Shown here piece by piece: positions 14,703-34,770 of a stretch of 36,849 bases of DNA. How positions within the stretch are numbered: position 1 is the first letter of the stretch; the number at the start of each line of letters is the position of its first letter. Under the pieces are notes generated by a model. That model was not told where the DNA came from and did no database searches. It saw only the letters and a list, made by a program, of their open reading frames with translations. This stretch comes from Candidatus Methanophagales archaeon. Lineage in GTDB: Archaea; Halobacteriota; Syntropharchaeia; Alkanophagales; Methanospirareceae. Made by a program: the position numbers and the translations under genes. The stretch is taken from NCBI GenBank assembly GCA_030612405.1, contig JAUWNY010000002.1:1-36849 (forward strand), written 5' to 3'.

Positions 14703-15020
14703 ATGGATAAAAATTTCCATGAGGCAGTATTGAAGTTGGTAAAGCAAATACCAGAGGGTAAAGTAACAACTTATGGTGAGATAGCGAGAGAAATAACAGG
14801 TTCAGTCCATGCTGCTCGTGCTGTTGGACAGGCAGTTGCTACAAATCCGTATCCTATTGTTGTTCCTTGTCATCGTGTCGTGAGAAGCGATGGAGACATT
14901 GGAGGTTATAGTTTGGGTGTGGATAAGAAGATAAGGCTTTTGAGCGCGGAAGGAGCAGAGATAAAAGGGAGAAAGGTGTTGAATTTCGAGCAAAGGCTTT
15001 TCCTTTTCGATTGTATATAA
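14703..15020 (+). CDS. ogt: Methylated-DNA--[protein]-cysteine S-methyltransferase
   Basis: Suicide repair enzyme that removes O6-alkyl groups from guanine. The 105 residues cover only the C-terminal catalytic domain: VTTYGEIAREI, the DNA-binding helix with ARAVGQAVATNP (arginine finger), and PCHRVV with acceptor Cys56. An acceptor cysteine makes it an active enzyme type rather than an alkyltransferase-like protein. The last codons, LFDCI and the TAA stop, lie in a repeated sequence (ATTGTATATAAAG) also found at 3348, 23803 and 25156, so the present C-terminus was set by insertion of that element. Confidence 0.93.
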   Translation: MDKNFHEAVLKLVKQIPEGKVTTYGEIAREITGSVHAARAVGQAVATNPYPIVVPCHRVVRSDGDIGGYSLGVDKKIRLLSAEGAEIKGRKVLNFEQRLFLFDCI

Positions 15021-15076
15021 AGTATAACATCTACCTATTTAGGACGCAGATTTACGCGGATTTACGCAGAAAACTA
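15009..15076 (-). repeat. 3' flank of the GxxExxY-type element (copy at ogt)
   Basis: Reading on the minus strand from the GxxExxY remnant's stop: TTTTCTGCGTAAATCCGCG, TAAATCTGCGTCCTAAATAGG, TAGATGTTATACTTTATATACAAT. This matches the copy at 23803-23866 and, more loosely, 3348-3416 and 25156-25212. It overlaps the stop codon of ogt and points its TATA-like boxes antisense into ogt. Confidence 0.7.
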
Positions 15077-15264
15077 TTTCCTCAAACTATCAAATGCCTT
15101 ACGTTTAACTTCCAGTTTAGTGTCAAAATTAAATTCTATCATCCTTGCATTCTCATAAACCTTTTCCAGAAAGCCATAACCCCTTTATTATAAACTCAAT
15201 AGAAGATTCTAATAATCCCCTCCGCCAATTCCTTATATTTTAAATCCTGATTATCTGCGGTCAT
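15074..15264 (-). pseudogene. Decayed, internally deleted GxxExxY-family gene
   Basis: The minus strand begins MTADNQDLKYKELAEGIIR, IFY, then an in-frame TGA where Glu is expected. After a one-base frame change it reads GYGFLEKVYENARMIEF, containing the defining G-x-x-E-x-x-Y (GFLEKVY), and then jumps to the normal C-terminus KLEVKRKAFDSLRK and a stop. Intact relatives are about 120-130 residues, so roughly 60 residues are missing from the middle. The region from 15021 to 15348 contains only this element and its flanks. GxxExxY proteins have no established biochemical function. Confidence 0.8.
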
Positions 15265-15348
15265 CTGCGTCCGATTATCAAAAATTATTCTTTCTTGCTT
15301 TAAAAAATAAAAGAAGAGGAAGAAGTCCTCCTTATACTTTGTATTTAC

Positions 15349-22794: not shown

Positions 22795-23781
22795 CTAAAC
22801 CTCTAATTTCACATCCCCTACTTTTATCCCTCTCGCCCGCTCCACGACTTCACCCACGATTTTGCCCCCTGTTACCCGGATAGCTTCCTGCTCCTCGCTT
22901 TTCGGAATTACTACCGCGAAGCCCATACCCATATTGAACGTTTTATACATCTCTTCATCTGTTATATTGCCAAGTTCCTGAATGAATTTGAATATGTCAT
23001 TCGGCACTAAAGGGTCGTGGATGTCGAAGCCGAGGTACGTGATTCTTCGCAGTTTCAGAAACCCACTGCCCGTTATATGTGCCAAGCCATGCACTTCACA
23101 CCTTTCCAGCAGCTCTAAAACCTCTGTATATATCCTCGTTGGCGTGAGTAACTCTTCACCTATGCTTATCGAAGGATTGTATTCAAAGGGGGAATTGTAA
23201 TCCAACCCTGCTGCTTCTATTACTTTCCTCGCGAGTGTTAACCCATTGCTGTGTATTCCCGAACTTTTCAGCCCCAGAACCAGGTCGCCTATTTCTATCT
23301 TTTCGCCTCGTATTACCCTATCCTTTGAAACATATCCTACGCAAGTTCCAGAAAGGTCTAAATCGTTTACCAGTTCTGGTAGTATCGCCGTTTCACCACC
23401 CACGATAGAAATATCCGCAATTCGCGCTCCTTCTTCTAATCCCTTGCCTATTTCCGCGGCAATTAACTCATCTGGCTTTTCCATCGCGAGATAATCAACA
23501 AACGCAATGGGCGTTGCCCCTACACAGTAAACATCGTTGACATTCATCGCGATGCAGTCTATACTGATGGTATCCCATTTGTTTAGCTCTGCAGCAATCA
23601 GGACTTTCGACCCGACACCATCGGTGGAAATAGCGAGCAGATGCTGCGTATCAAAAGGGAGTTCAAAAAGGCCGGAAAACCCTTTTAACTCCTTTATCCG
23701 GGTCATCTCCGCGGATAGCGCCTTTACAACTCCTTGTTCCTTTTTTATGTCCACGCCTGCTTTTGCGTATGTCCACGGCAT
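22795..23781 (-). CDS. purM: Phosphoribosylformylglycinamidine cyclo-ligase (AIR synthetase)
   Basis: Purine synthesis step 5 (FGAM to AIR, ATP-dependent). The 328 residues begin TYAKAGVDIKKEQ. The family loops are present: STDGVGSKVLIA, DCIAMNVNDVYCVGATPIAFVDYLA, IVGGETAILPE, LVLGLKSSGIHSNGLTLARKV, LAHITGSGFLKLRRI, and FNMGMGFAVV. The length is normal. The start is ATG 23781 with a TATA-like TTTAATATACC (about 23803-23814) that belongs to the repeat described there, again suggesting that the repeat supplied the promoter. Confidence 0.95.
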   Translation of the reverse strand: MPWTYAKAGVDIKKEQGVVKALSAEMTRIKELKGFSGLFELPFDTQHLLAISTDGVGSKVLIAAELNKWDTISIDCIAMNVNDVYCVGATPIAFVDYLAMEKPDELIAAEIGKGLEEGARIADISIVGGETAILPELVNDLDLSGTCVGYVSKDRVIRGEKIEIGDLVLGLKSSGIHSNGLTLARKVIEAAGLDYNSPFEYNPSISIGEELLTPTRIYTEVLELLERCEVHGLAHITGSGFLKLRRITYLGFDIHDPLVPNDIFKFIQELGNITDEEMYKTFNMGMGFAVVIPKSEEQEAIRVTGGKIVGEVVERARGIKVGDVKLEV

Positions 23782-23802: not shown

Positions 23803-23866
23803 GTATATTAAAGTATAACTTCTACCTATTTAGGACGCAGATTTAGCGGATTTACGCAGAAAACTA
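23803..23866 (-). repeat. 3' flank of the GxxExxY-type element (copy upstream of purM)
   Basis: Minus strand: TTTTCTGCGTAAATCCGCTAA, ATCTGCGTCCTAAATAGGTAG, AAGTTATACTTTAATATACC. It is almost identical to 15009-15076 and points towards purM. Confidence 0.7.
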
Positions 23867-23923
23867 TTTCCTCAAATTATCAAATGCCTTACGTTTTTTA
23901 AAATCCTGATTATCTGCGTTCAT
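23864..23923 (-). pseudogene. Minimal GxxExxY remnant (19 codons)
   Basis: It reads MNADNQDFKKRKAFDNLRK and a stop. The first seven residues equal the start of the GxxExxY remnant at 15074-15264 (MTADNQDL), and the last nine equal its end (KRKAFDSLRK). The complete middle is deleted in frame. Both flanks are kept: the 5' flank (CAAGAAAGAATAATTTTTGA then AATCGGACGCAG) overlaps the stop of the ATP-grasp gene. It is probably not a functional peptide. Confidence 0.75.
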
Positions 23924-23943
23924 CTGCGTCCGATTTTCAAAAA

Positions 23944-25122
23944 TTATTCTTTCTTGTGTCTCACACACGCTTTTATACGCTCGACATTGCTCATCGCTTC
24001 AGCAACCGCTTCTTCTCTACTATCGCCAATCCCTATTCCCGTGGCAATGGGTTCTCCCTGCTTTACAATTCTGCCTTTTTCCGGAATGTCCACTATTCCT
24101 TGCACATCCCTATCTAAATTTCCCATCACTACCCCTTCTTGTCTTGCAAACACAATCGTTTTTGCAGCATATCTTTTCGCTTCCACTTGTTCTACGAGTA
24201 AATCCCCTCTTACCGCTTTCATAGACGCATCAACTAAATTCAAATTTAGACCTGTGGAAAGCTCAACAGTGTCCAGGCTTCCTTGAAACCGTGGGTTCAC
24301 TTCTATTACGAAAGGTACATCGTCAGTAACAACAAAATCAATCCCGTTAGAGCCTACCAGCCCTAATTCAGTCGTTAAGAACTCGGCAATTTCACACATC
24401 TGCTCTGAAGATTTTGTTACAAACGGGGAGATGTTCCCGCAGTAGGCAAAGGGTCCGGGAGCGTAAACCGAATCCAGACCTATCAACTGCTCATTCACGG
24501 ATACCGAAATCGCCTCATGCTCGGTTGAAATGAGCGATACAGAGGCATGCGTTCCATTTATGTATTCCTGGAATAAGAAATCAGGAAAAAGTTTAGCCCA
24601 GTGAATCAACCCCTTTTCATCAATACAAAAGAAATTAGCCGTTCCCCCACCGCCATAAACGGGTTTTGCCACCACGGGATAGTGAAAGTCTTTCAGTTTC
24701 GCTTTTTCTTCCCATTCTCCTTCTCCTTCCGCTATTTCTCTGCCCGTATAGCTAAGAGGATGCGGGATACCTAAATCGTCTAATCGCGATGAAAGCCATG
24801 CTTTATTCGATACTTCTCTCGTCTTCTCCGGTGTGTTCCCCACTATCTTTTTCCTATCCTTAACAGTTAAGAACCCGAAATCCGCACTCTCAAACCCTGA
24901 GCCTATAATTATACCGTCAGCTTCTTCTACCTCCGCTTTAAGGTGTTTGACGTCAGCGTGAAGCTGAAGCGGATTCAGAGGGAAATATCTGGTGGCACAT
25001 CTCCTCGTATCTATATCGCCAAAAGCATCGGCAGCATACATCTCATAGCCCGCCCTGCTGCCGGAACATACGATATGCCTGACGGAATATCCGATTGCCA
25101 ATATTTTTCTTGTTTGGTGCAT
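23944..25122 (-). CDS. ATP-grasp family ligase (COG2232-like)
   Basis: A 392-residue ATP-grasp enzyme: an N-terminal pre-ATP-grasp Rossmann part (residues 1 to about 110, ILAIGYSVRHIV...ADGIIIGSGFE), then the nucleotide loop VVAKPVYGGGGTANFF, the hinge FLFQEYINGTHASVS, and metal ligands GSNGIDFVVTDDVPFVIEVNPRFQGSLD. A C-terminal biotin-carboxylase-like region follows. Such enzymes join a carboxylate to an amine or thiol through an acylphosphate. It resembles the archaeal COG2232 group, possibly tied to cofactor synthesis; the substrate is unknown. The last codons KKE and the TAA are part of a repeated element shared with 15280-15300. Confidence 0.8.
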   Translation of the reverse strand: MHQTRKILAIGYSVRHIVCSGSRAGYEMYAADAFGDIDTRRCATRYFPLNPLQLHADVKHLKAEVEEADGIIIGSGFESADFGFLTVKDRKKIVGNTPEKTREVSNKAWLSSRLDDLGIPHPLSYTGREIAEGEGEWEEKAKLKDFHYPVVAKPVYGGGGTANFFCIDEKGLIHWAKLFPDFLFQEYINGTHASVSLISTEHEAISVSVNEQLIGLDSVYAPGPFAYCGNISPFVTKSSEQMCEIAEFLTTELGLVGSNGIDFVVTDDVPFVIEVNPRFQGSLDTVELSTGLNLNLVDASMKAVRGDLLVEQVEAKRYAAKTIVFARQEGVVMGNLDRDVQGIVDIPEKGRIVKQGEPIATGIGIGDSREEAVAEAMSNVERIKACVRHKKE

Positions 25123-25155: not shown

Positions 25156-25212
25156 ATTGTATATAAAGTATAACTTCCTTCTATTTGAGACACGGATTTA
25201 CACGGACTTATT
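25156..25212 (-). repeat. Solo 3'-flank repeat upstream of the ATP-grasp gene
   Basis: Minus strand: AAGTCCGTGTAAATCCGTGTC, TCAAATAGAAGGAAGTTATAC, TTTATATACAATTAAAAAAAG. It carries the same TATACTTTATATACAAT end as the asd copy. The TTTATATA box is about 36-45 nt before the ATG at 25122. Confidence 0.65.
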
Positions 25213-25251
25213 TTAATTTAACATTGTTGATTTTTATCATCTGTGTTAATT

Positions 25252-25287
25252 AAGCCCTTTCTTGGCTTGCGGAGACGTGGGCAGAGC
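25252..25287. repeat. Two tight hairpins inserted in a repeat relic
   Basis: AAGCC-CTTTCTT-GGCTT is followed by CGTGGGC-AGA-GCCCACG, a perfect 7-bp stem with a 3-nt loop. These interrupt a GTGTTAAT...CGTTAATCTGTG repeat relic. The same hairpin style and the word GGCTTGCGG recur at 33406-33490. Confidence 0.6.
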
Positions 25288-25329
25288 CCACGAGCGTTAA
25301 TCTGTGTCAACGATTTATTTTCTTGTGAA

Positions 25330-25348
25330 ACCGAAAAGCTTTTATACC
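25330..25348 (+). promoter_or_regulatory. BRE-TATA promoter of the giant surface-protein gene
   Basis: CCGAAAAGCTTTTATACC combines a purine-rich BRE-like stretch with a TATA box. Initiation would be near 25372, leaving a leader of about 210 nt before the ATG at 25584. Confidence 0.5.
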
Positions 25349-34174: not shown

Positions 34175-34447
34175 TTATGGTGCGGTCCTACCAAATAGAA
34201 TTTCTAGGGCTTCAGAGGGTGTAATAACTCTATCAGGCAAGCATTCCTTTAATCCCTTATCTCCAGAGAGAATCTTACAATCAAATTTGAGTATTTTATC
34301 CACTCTTTTACCAACCTCAAAGAACAGGAACTCAGGGGCTATAAATTCAAATTTCATGAGAAGCTTGTTTAACTCAAAAACCTTTAAAGGCTTGCCCCTT
34401 CTCATCAGGGCAGAGAATACGACATTAGCGTCAACTATCAGTAGCAT
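34175..34447 (-). CDS. vapC: PIN-domain toxin (VapC) with internal deletion
   Basis: 90 residues: a normal PIN start MLLIVDANVVFSALMRRGKP (Asp6) and FIAPEFLFFEVGKR with Glu. The sequence then jumps directly to ILKFDCKILSGDKGLKE, the last strand region. The central helices with the HPKDxxYxALA block, kept in the neighbouring fusion at 33590-33844, are missing (about 45-50 residues). The frame is intact, but the metal site would lack an acidic residue, so it is probably inactive. It follows its antitoxin by 6 nt. Confidence 0.7.
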   Translation of the reverse strand: MLLIVDANVVFSALMRRGKPLKVFELNKLLMKFEFIAPEFLFFEVGKRVDKILKFDCKILSGDKGLKECLPDRVITPSEALEILFGRTAP

Positions 34448-34453
34448 CTCGAA

Positions 34454-34684
34454 TCACTTCTCAATCTTAAGAAGCCTTTTAGCAATCGCTAAACTTACTT
34501 CGTCTGCTAATTCTTTGGCTTGTTCCTCAGTTAGTTTTGATTTAGACACTATCGATTCGACTTCTCTTATTTCTTCCAGCTCTCTTCTCAGGAATCTTGA
34601 GAATAGCAATTGCCAATCCTCCTTTGGTATTTTACCAAGTTCTATTCCAATATCCTCCGGTATCTTAACAACTAATTCTGCCAT
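34454..34684 (-). CDS. vapB: VapB-like antitoxin paired with the deleted PIN toxin
   Basis: 76 residues from MAELVVKIPEDIGIELGKIP, a short DNA-binding-like N-terminus, followed by long charged helices (EEIREVESIVSKSKLTEEQA, KELADEVSLAIAKRLLKIEK). This resembles small archaeal antitoxins that precede PIN proteins. GGTGG lies 6 nt before the ATG and TTTATATAC about 35-40 nt before it. The same promoter block precedes the fused pair at 33844, so the two modules are tandem duplicates. Confidence 0.7.
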   Translation of the reverse strand: MAELVVKIPEDIGIELGKIPKEDWQLLFSRFLRRELEEIREVESIVSKSKLTEEQAKELADEVSLAIAKRLLKIEK

Positions 34685-34770
34685 TTCTACCACCGCTAAT
34701 AATATTGGCAATGAGTATATAAACACTTTTTCTTTTTTGTAAAAAAAGAAAACCTGTGCTAAAAGAAAAA
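34675..34770 (-). repeat. Second copy of the vapB promoter plus hairpin element
   Basis: It shares GCCATTTCTACCACCGCTAA, TAATATTGGCAATG and ATATAAA with 33838-33883, then CACTTTTTCTTTTTTG and AACCTGTGCTAAAAGAAAAA. The downstream gap (34771-35272) has AT-rich sequence, a strong TATA box, a tRNA T-arm-like string and purine-rich leader sequence, but no gene that I can support. Confidence 0.6.

Follow-up and report, generated by a model that had tools for sequence, protein, structure and literature searches.

The best reading of positions 23803–23956 in a 36,849-nucleotide stretch of DNA from a Candidatus Methanophagales archaeon (the whole analysed stretch, hereafter the window) is a gene-less, shrunken copy of a mobile element of ~490 bp, in other words a non-autonomous deletion derivative. 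The parent element is probably made of a GxxExxY gene placed between inverted ends of ~10-bp iterons, with the encoded nuclease acting in trans on its gene-less derivatives. The evidence comes from the internal structure of the copy, from its relatives in six genomes of the same genus, from filled and empty sites at orthologous loci and from GxxExxY genes outside the genus.

The minimal copy and its full-length relatives

The minimal copy is read on the minus strand, from its left end (CAAGAAAG) at position 23956 to its right tail at ~23803. It opens with a left terminal segment (CAAGAAAGAATAATTTTTGAAAATC, 23932–23956) that is common to all well-kept copies and is preceded by host sequence that varies. 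Then come the left iterons (GGACGCAGATGAACGCAGATAATCAGGATTT, or GGACGCAGATGAACGCAGATAATCAGG, 23901–23931, found by pattern search with 0 mismatches), an ORF of 19 codons plus stop (MNADNQDFKKRKAFDNLRK, 23923 to 23864), right iterons inverted with respect to the left ones (TCTGCGTAAATCCGCTAAATCTGCGTCC, 23833–23860) and a right tail with a TATA-like box, merged with the promoter of purM (TAAATAGGTAGAAGTTATACTTTAATATACC, 23803–23832), all on the minus strand. The ORF unites the start and the end of GxxExxY: the fusion of MNADNQDF to KKRKAFDNLRK between both flanks, claimed by the first-pass annotation, is indeed found here. Alignment with a full-length copy (L050) locates the loss at core bases 35–371, and the frame is kept because the deletion measures exactly 336 bp, that is 112 codons. 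In shuffled windows, the repeat would be expected 0.00 times by chance. As a single strand, the minimal copy forms a weak hairpin (z = −1.88) and the full-length element a stronger one (z = −2.76).

A longer copy lies at 15011–15297 (minus strand). Its GxxExxY gene is broken, having lost one large internal stretch (core 139–343); the copy shares two parts with the minimal copy, at 96% and 89% identity (E = 5e-40). These two copies belong to a large population. In six same-genus genomes (G000–G005), the left-end pattern occurs at 83 places (30, 7, 19, 4, 14 and 9, respectively) and the reversed pattern at none, and the right end matches at least 40 places in the window's own genome, where 40 of 161 candidates were scored. 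A total of 84 left ends were examined in loci (including L043, from another genus), and a right end could be assigned to 77 of them; among these, a 1240-bp pairing was discarded as spurious, since it covers two neighbouring copies. Measured from GGACG to CGTCC, the core is 57–231 bp long in 74 copies and 436–437 bp in two, L050 (G002) and L057 (G001), both of which hold intact GxxExxY genes inside the same flanks. The complete element of L050, from CAAGAAAG to TATATACAA, is ~492 bp long, L057 has lost its right tail, and GxxExxY is the only gene between the element ends. The graded series anticipated from the two window copies thus emerges from the flank-pair search across the six genomes, and the flank pair is neither unique to these two loci nor always devoid of a full-length gene. 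In the window's own assembly (G000; 2.23 Mb, 85% complete), no full-length copy with these flanks was found, and the two intact GxxExxY genes present there both have other iterons.

Insertion sites and targets

Comparison of orthologous sites reveals where elements have been gained. At the site of the 15-kb copy, the flanking genes are present in G002–G005 and the element is absent; the empty site of G004 and G005 reads TTTTTGATTTTAAAAAAT, and the filled site of the window consists of TTTTCGAT, the element and TTTAAAAAAT. In the element's direction, the filled site of L085 has GAAA, the element and TGGCAATGG, for an empty site GAAATGAAAAAAAC in G004, and that of L074 has CAAA, the element and TCAAAAATG, for an empty site TAAATCAAAAATT in G005. 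No target duplication was seen at these three orthologous pairs of filled and empty sites, so the element is not a DDE-type MITE, for which such a duplication is usual. The full-length insertion of L050 is missing from G001, G004 and G005, where the right flank is rearranged and the left side alone is clean. The orthologous sites of L014, L017, L089, L013 and L061 were rejected as clean empty sites, being rearranged or holding other repeats, and the plasmid matches are too divergent for junction analysis.

The host bases past the right end are strongly YRARAAA-like, with a YRARAA start at 17 of 41 sites versus 0.57% in the nearby background, and the base preceding the left end is an A in 33 of 47 cases. 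This target resembles the element's own left end, CAAGAAA. An excised or circular form may perhaps exist; its right–left junction, TATACAA followed by CAAGAAA (TATACAACAAGAAA), would resemble the right end plus target (TATACAA followed by YRARAAA), because the element itself starts with CAAGAAA.

The GxxExxY protein, its iterons and known mobile systems

GxxExxY is a putative PD-(D/E)XK nuclease of ~130 amino acids. The intact genes reach 137.5 bits with TIGR04256 (cut-off 35) and 145 bits with PF13366 (PDDEXK_3; cut-off 22), those of the full-length elements matching at E about 1e-40, and hence belong to a family annotated merely as a protein of unknown role. All 20 sequences compared conserve residues D73, E83 and K85 without exception. 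The solved folds closest to an AF2 model of the protein (mean pLDDT 91.6) are SSO0001 (a Cas4 nuclease), the alkaline and lambda exonucleases and the archaeal Hjc resolvases, at 11–21% sequence identity; the conserved D...ExK residues and the matching fold are those of the PD-(D/E)XK superfamily. These matches are consistent with a DNA nuclease working on ends or junctions. Cas4, lambda exonuclease and Hjc, unlike GxxExxY, come without iterons or mobility. A search of the PDB by sequence returned no GxxExxY relative, PADLOC gave weak Cas4-like matches alone and PHROGs one weak endonuclease match. In the searchable literature, most subscription journals being outside its scope, no link of GxxExxY or PF13366 to mobile elements was found.

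Beyond the genus, a profile search of species-representative genomes yielded at least 557 relatives, the best 80 of which cover many phyla and include a 91%-identical protein from a Desulfobacteraceae metagenome-assembled genome (MAG); most bacterial genomes tested have 1–8 GxxExxY genes, and no encoded relative was found in viral contigs. At 51 of 77 GxxExxY loci, the immediate flanks hold an inverted repeat that is significant at p ≤ 0.005 in comparison with shuffles; the remaining 26 loci have none at this threshold. Flanks situated ~600 bp off served as a second control, and 0 of 63 had such a repeat. A cross-locus background had been replaced because it was inflated by iterons in common. 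The arms are arrays of ~10-bp units (e.g. CCACGGATTGAA, CAGGATTAA, CACGAATTAA and CGCAGATGAA). The more identical the proteins, the more similar their arms tend to be (Mantel r = 0.25, p = 0.0002, n = 51), and CACGAAT iterons accompany one protein cluster with members in five phyla. This shows gene and arms to be travelling as a unit; the correlation between protein and iterons is also expected from plain co-inheritance of gene and ends, and recognition is not proven by the correlation alone. Gene-less copies occur in Bacteria too: the same Desulfobacteraceae MAG has nine matches, mostly partial, with some complete mini-copies.

Several individual loci deserve mention. In a groundwater deltaproteobacterium (L217; G059, contig C133, 8518–13094), seven 111-bp mini-copies surround an intact GxxExxY gene, several of which are arrayed at intervals of ~172 bp, the spacers between them being conserved. 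The Desulfobacteraceae locus (L213) and the archaeal L057 have the same GGACGCAGAT iterons, different outer tips and proteins 91% identical, and a recent transfer between archaeon and bacterium is possible. In L033–L039, where the GxxExxY genes have ACCGCCGAGAACGCGGAG iterons, gene and ends overlap: the C-terminal residues of the protein are encoded by the right iterons, and the left iterons share sequence with the start codon.

In the mechanism that we propose, the nuclease would bind arrays of iterons spaced by one helical turn, cut at the element ends and mobilise intact as well as deleted copies in trans, and internal deletions would generate the graded series. Such elements share with the MITEs of prokaryotic insertion sequences (ISs) the short gene-less copies that keep both parent ends, the graded internal deletions, the dispersal over many sites and the presence or absence at orthologous sites. 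They differ by a parent that encodes a PD-(D/E)XK nuclease and no known transposase, by the lack of target-site duplication and by outermost tips that are not mutual inverted repeats, the inverted repeat being located just inside. IS200/IS605 and REP/RAYT elements are small and single-gene, with imperfect palindromes inside the tips, no target duplication and a short motif beside one end. The GxxExxY element is likewise small and single-gene, with imperfect palindromes just inside its tips, no target duplication and a target motif beside its end, but IS200/IS605 rely on HUH (Y1) enzymes and not on a D-ExK nuclease fold. Elements of the IS91 and IS110 types make little or no target duplication at targets resembling the sequence beside one end, as seen here with a target similar to the element's own left end, whereas their enzymes are HUH Y2 or DEDD and the one encoded here is a PD-(D/E)XK nuclease.

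These likenesses bear on the main alternative, namely that the copies are mobile through another transposase (IS200/IS605 Y1, IS110 or DDE) and that GxxExxY is a passenger in the longest version. Elements of IS200/IS605, IS91 and in part IS110 typically insert without target duplication as well, and some Y1_Tnp and Transposase_20 genes do exist in these genomes. However, membership in IS200/IS605 was rejected, as no Y1 HUH transposase lies between the ends and the Y1_Tnp genes here are without these ends. Membership in IS110 was likewise rejected, there being no DEDD transposase between the ends and the IS110-type genes being unlinked to them. That no Y1_Tnp or Transposase_20 locus is bounded by element ends makes the alternative less likely, and it also has to face the many phyla in which GxxExxY sits between inverted iterons, with an iteron type that follows the protein type. 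We consider it unlikely. Movement by the nuclease itself is preferred, and on balance we lean towards regarding GxxExxY with its iteron ends as an undescribed class of transposable elements of ~0.5 kb, present in Archaea and many bacterial phyla, inserting without target duplication and spawning gene-less derivatives. The relation between an element and its miniature derivatives is classical; the element class would be new if the nuclease is the mover.

Deletion classes, the purM promoter and implications

When the deletions are mapped on L050, three near-identical variants of one class, running from ~33–37 to 339–346, account for 16 copies (~12 distinct sites), 9 copies (7 sites) and 5 copies (at least 3 sites). 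The minimal class, defined by an in-frame deletion of 336 bp from 35 to 371, is found at three unrelated sites, L004, L006 (in the window) and L016, and common junctions overall recur at 3 to ~12 sites per class. L003, with one deletion, and L066, with two, suggest a stepwise loss. Shrinkage in place is also seen, at the purM site in G002 (smaller there than in G000 and G004) and at the L074 site, where G001 has a stub (L185). It could accordingly be asked whether every short copy shrank independently from a full-length insertion, deleted forms never having moved. Identical junctions at many non-orthologous sites make this very improbable, as does the minimal-class copy L004, which is missing at the orthologous site in G001, G002, G003 and G005 and was therefore probably inserted in already-deleted form. 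The best explanation is that deletions arose partly before spreading, hence the common junctions, and partly in place. The parent–derivative relation put forward by the first-pass annotation is supported by the intact parents L050 and L057, the precise empty sites and the junctions repeated at unrelated loci, with parents that are presumably autonomous.

The minimal copy of the window lies between two genes of the minus strand, purM directly downstream (22795–23781; TIGR00878, E = 1.8e-107) and an ATP-grasp-like gene upstream (23944–25122), the last codons and stop of which fall inside the left end of the copy. G004 has an ortholog of the same form (L078/L305), G002 has the same insertion upstream of purM, still smaller and with the left iterons gone, and G001 and G003 have no copy there. 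The purM promoter reads CTTTAACATACC without the element and CTTTAATATACC in the window, so that the element and the TATA-like box of the host are merged on this side and there is no clean right junction. The window copy is inherited, having been fixed before the divergence of G000, G002 and G004, and it may contribute to purM transcription nowadays. More generally, a gene start is found within 200 bp of the right end at 31 of 47 distinct sites and of the left end at 13 of 47; among discordant sites, the right end points toward the gene start in 20 and the left end in 2 (p = 1.2e-4). Either oriented target choice or retention for the promoter-like end could explain this bias. The bias, together with a copy abutting purM in three species, would also suit old intergenic promoter or terminator cassettes, immobile now and kept for the TATA-like box, but this is the least probable reading of all, in view of insertions that are precise, specific to one species and matched by empty sites in its relatives, and of nuclease coding remnants that are out of place in a pure promoter cassette, the domestication of a single copy being compatible with mobility of the family.

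Other repeats and genes were observed in the same surroundings. A second, related and abundant element type (CAAGAAAATAAATT..GACACAGATTAACGCAGAT..GTAAATCTGTGTCTTAAATAGAAGGAAGTTATACTTTATATACAA) has both tips in common with the first; one copy lies upstream of the ATP-grasp-like gene in the window (~25157–25340, minus strand, L006), and others are in L027–L031, L201 and L308. In L308 (G003, contig C98), the second-type element is followed by a pair of genes that resemble, by eye, a HicB/HicA toxin–antitoxin system, between the ATP-grasp gene and purM. A palindromic insert of ~45 bp (CGTGGGCTCTGCCCACG..CCGCAAGCCCTGAAAGGGCTTA) is nested in the iterons of L006 (window ~25200–25330), L029, L031, L024, L047 and L048, and looks like another small repeat using GxxExxY-type elements as landing sites. 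At 34175–34726 (minus strand), the ORF list of the window contains two adjacent 90-aa ORFs that by eye are PIN-domain toxin- and antitoxin-like.

If the proposed mechanism is true, the GxxExxY elements, at ~0.5 kb, would rank with the smallest DNA elements known to move by themselves. The transposase classes known so far work by DDE, DEDD, HUH, tyrosine, serine, Cas1 or reverse-transcriptase chemistry, and one more enzymatic class would join them if this common nuclease family of unknown role proves to supply the only protein that a minimal mobile element encodes. This would also account for many unannotated prokaryotic repeats of the CGCAGATTAA type and open the function of TIGR04256 to direct testing. 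The copies of this archaeal genus have a TATA-like box that points at gene starts, and they may have rewired promoters.
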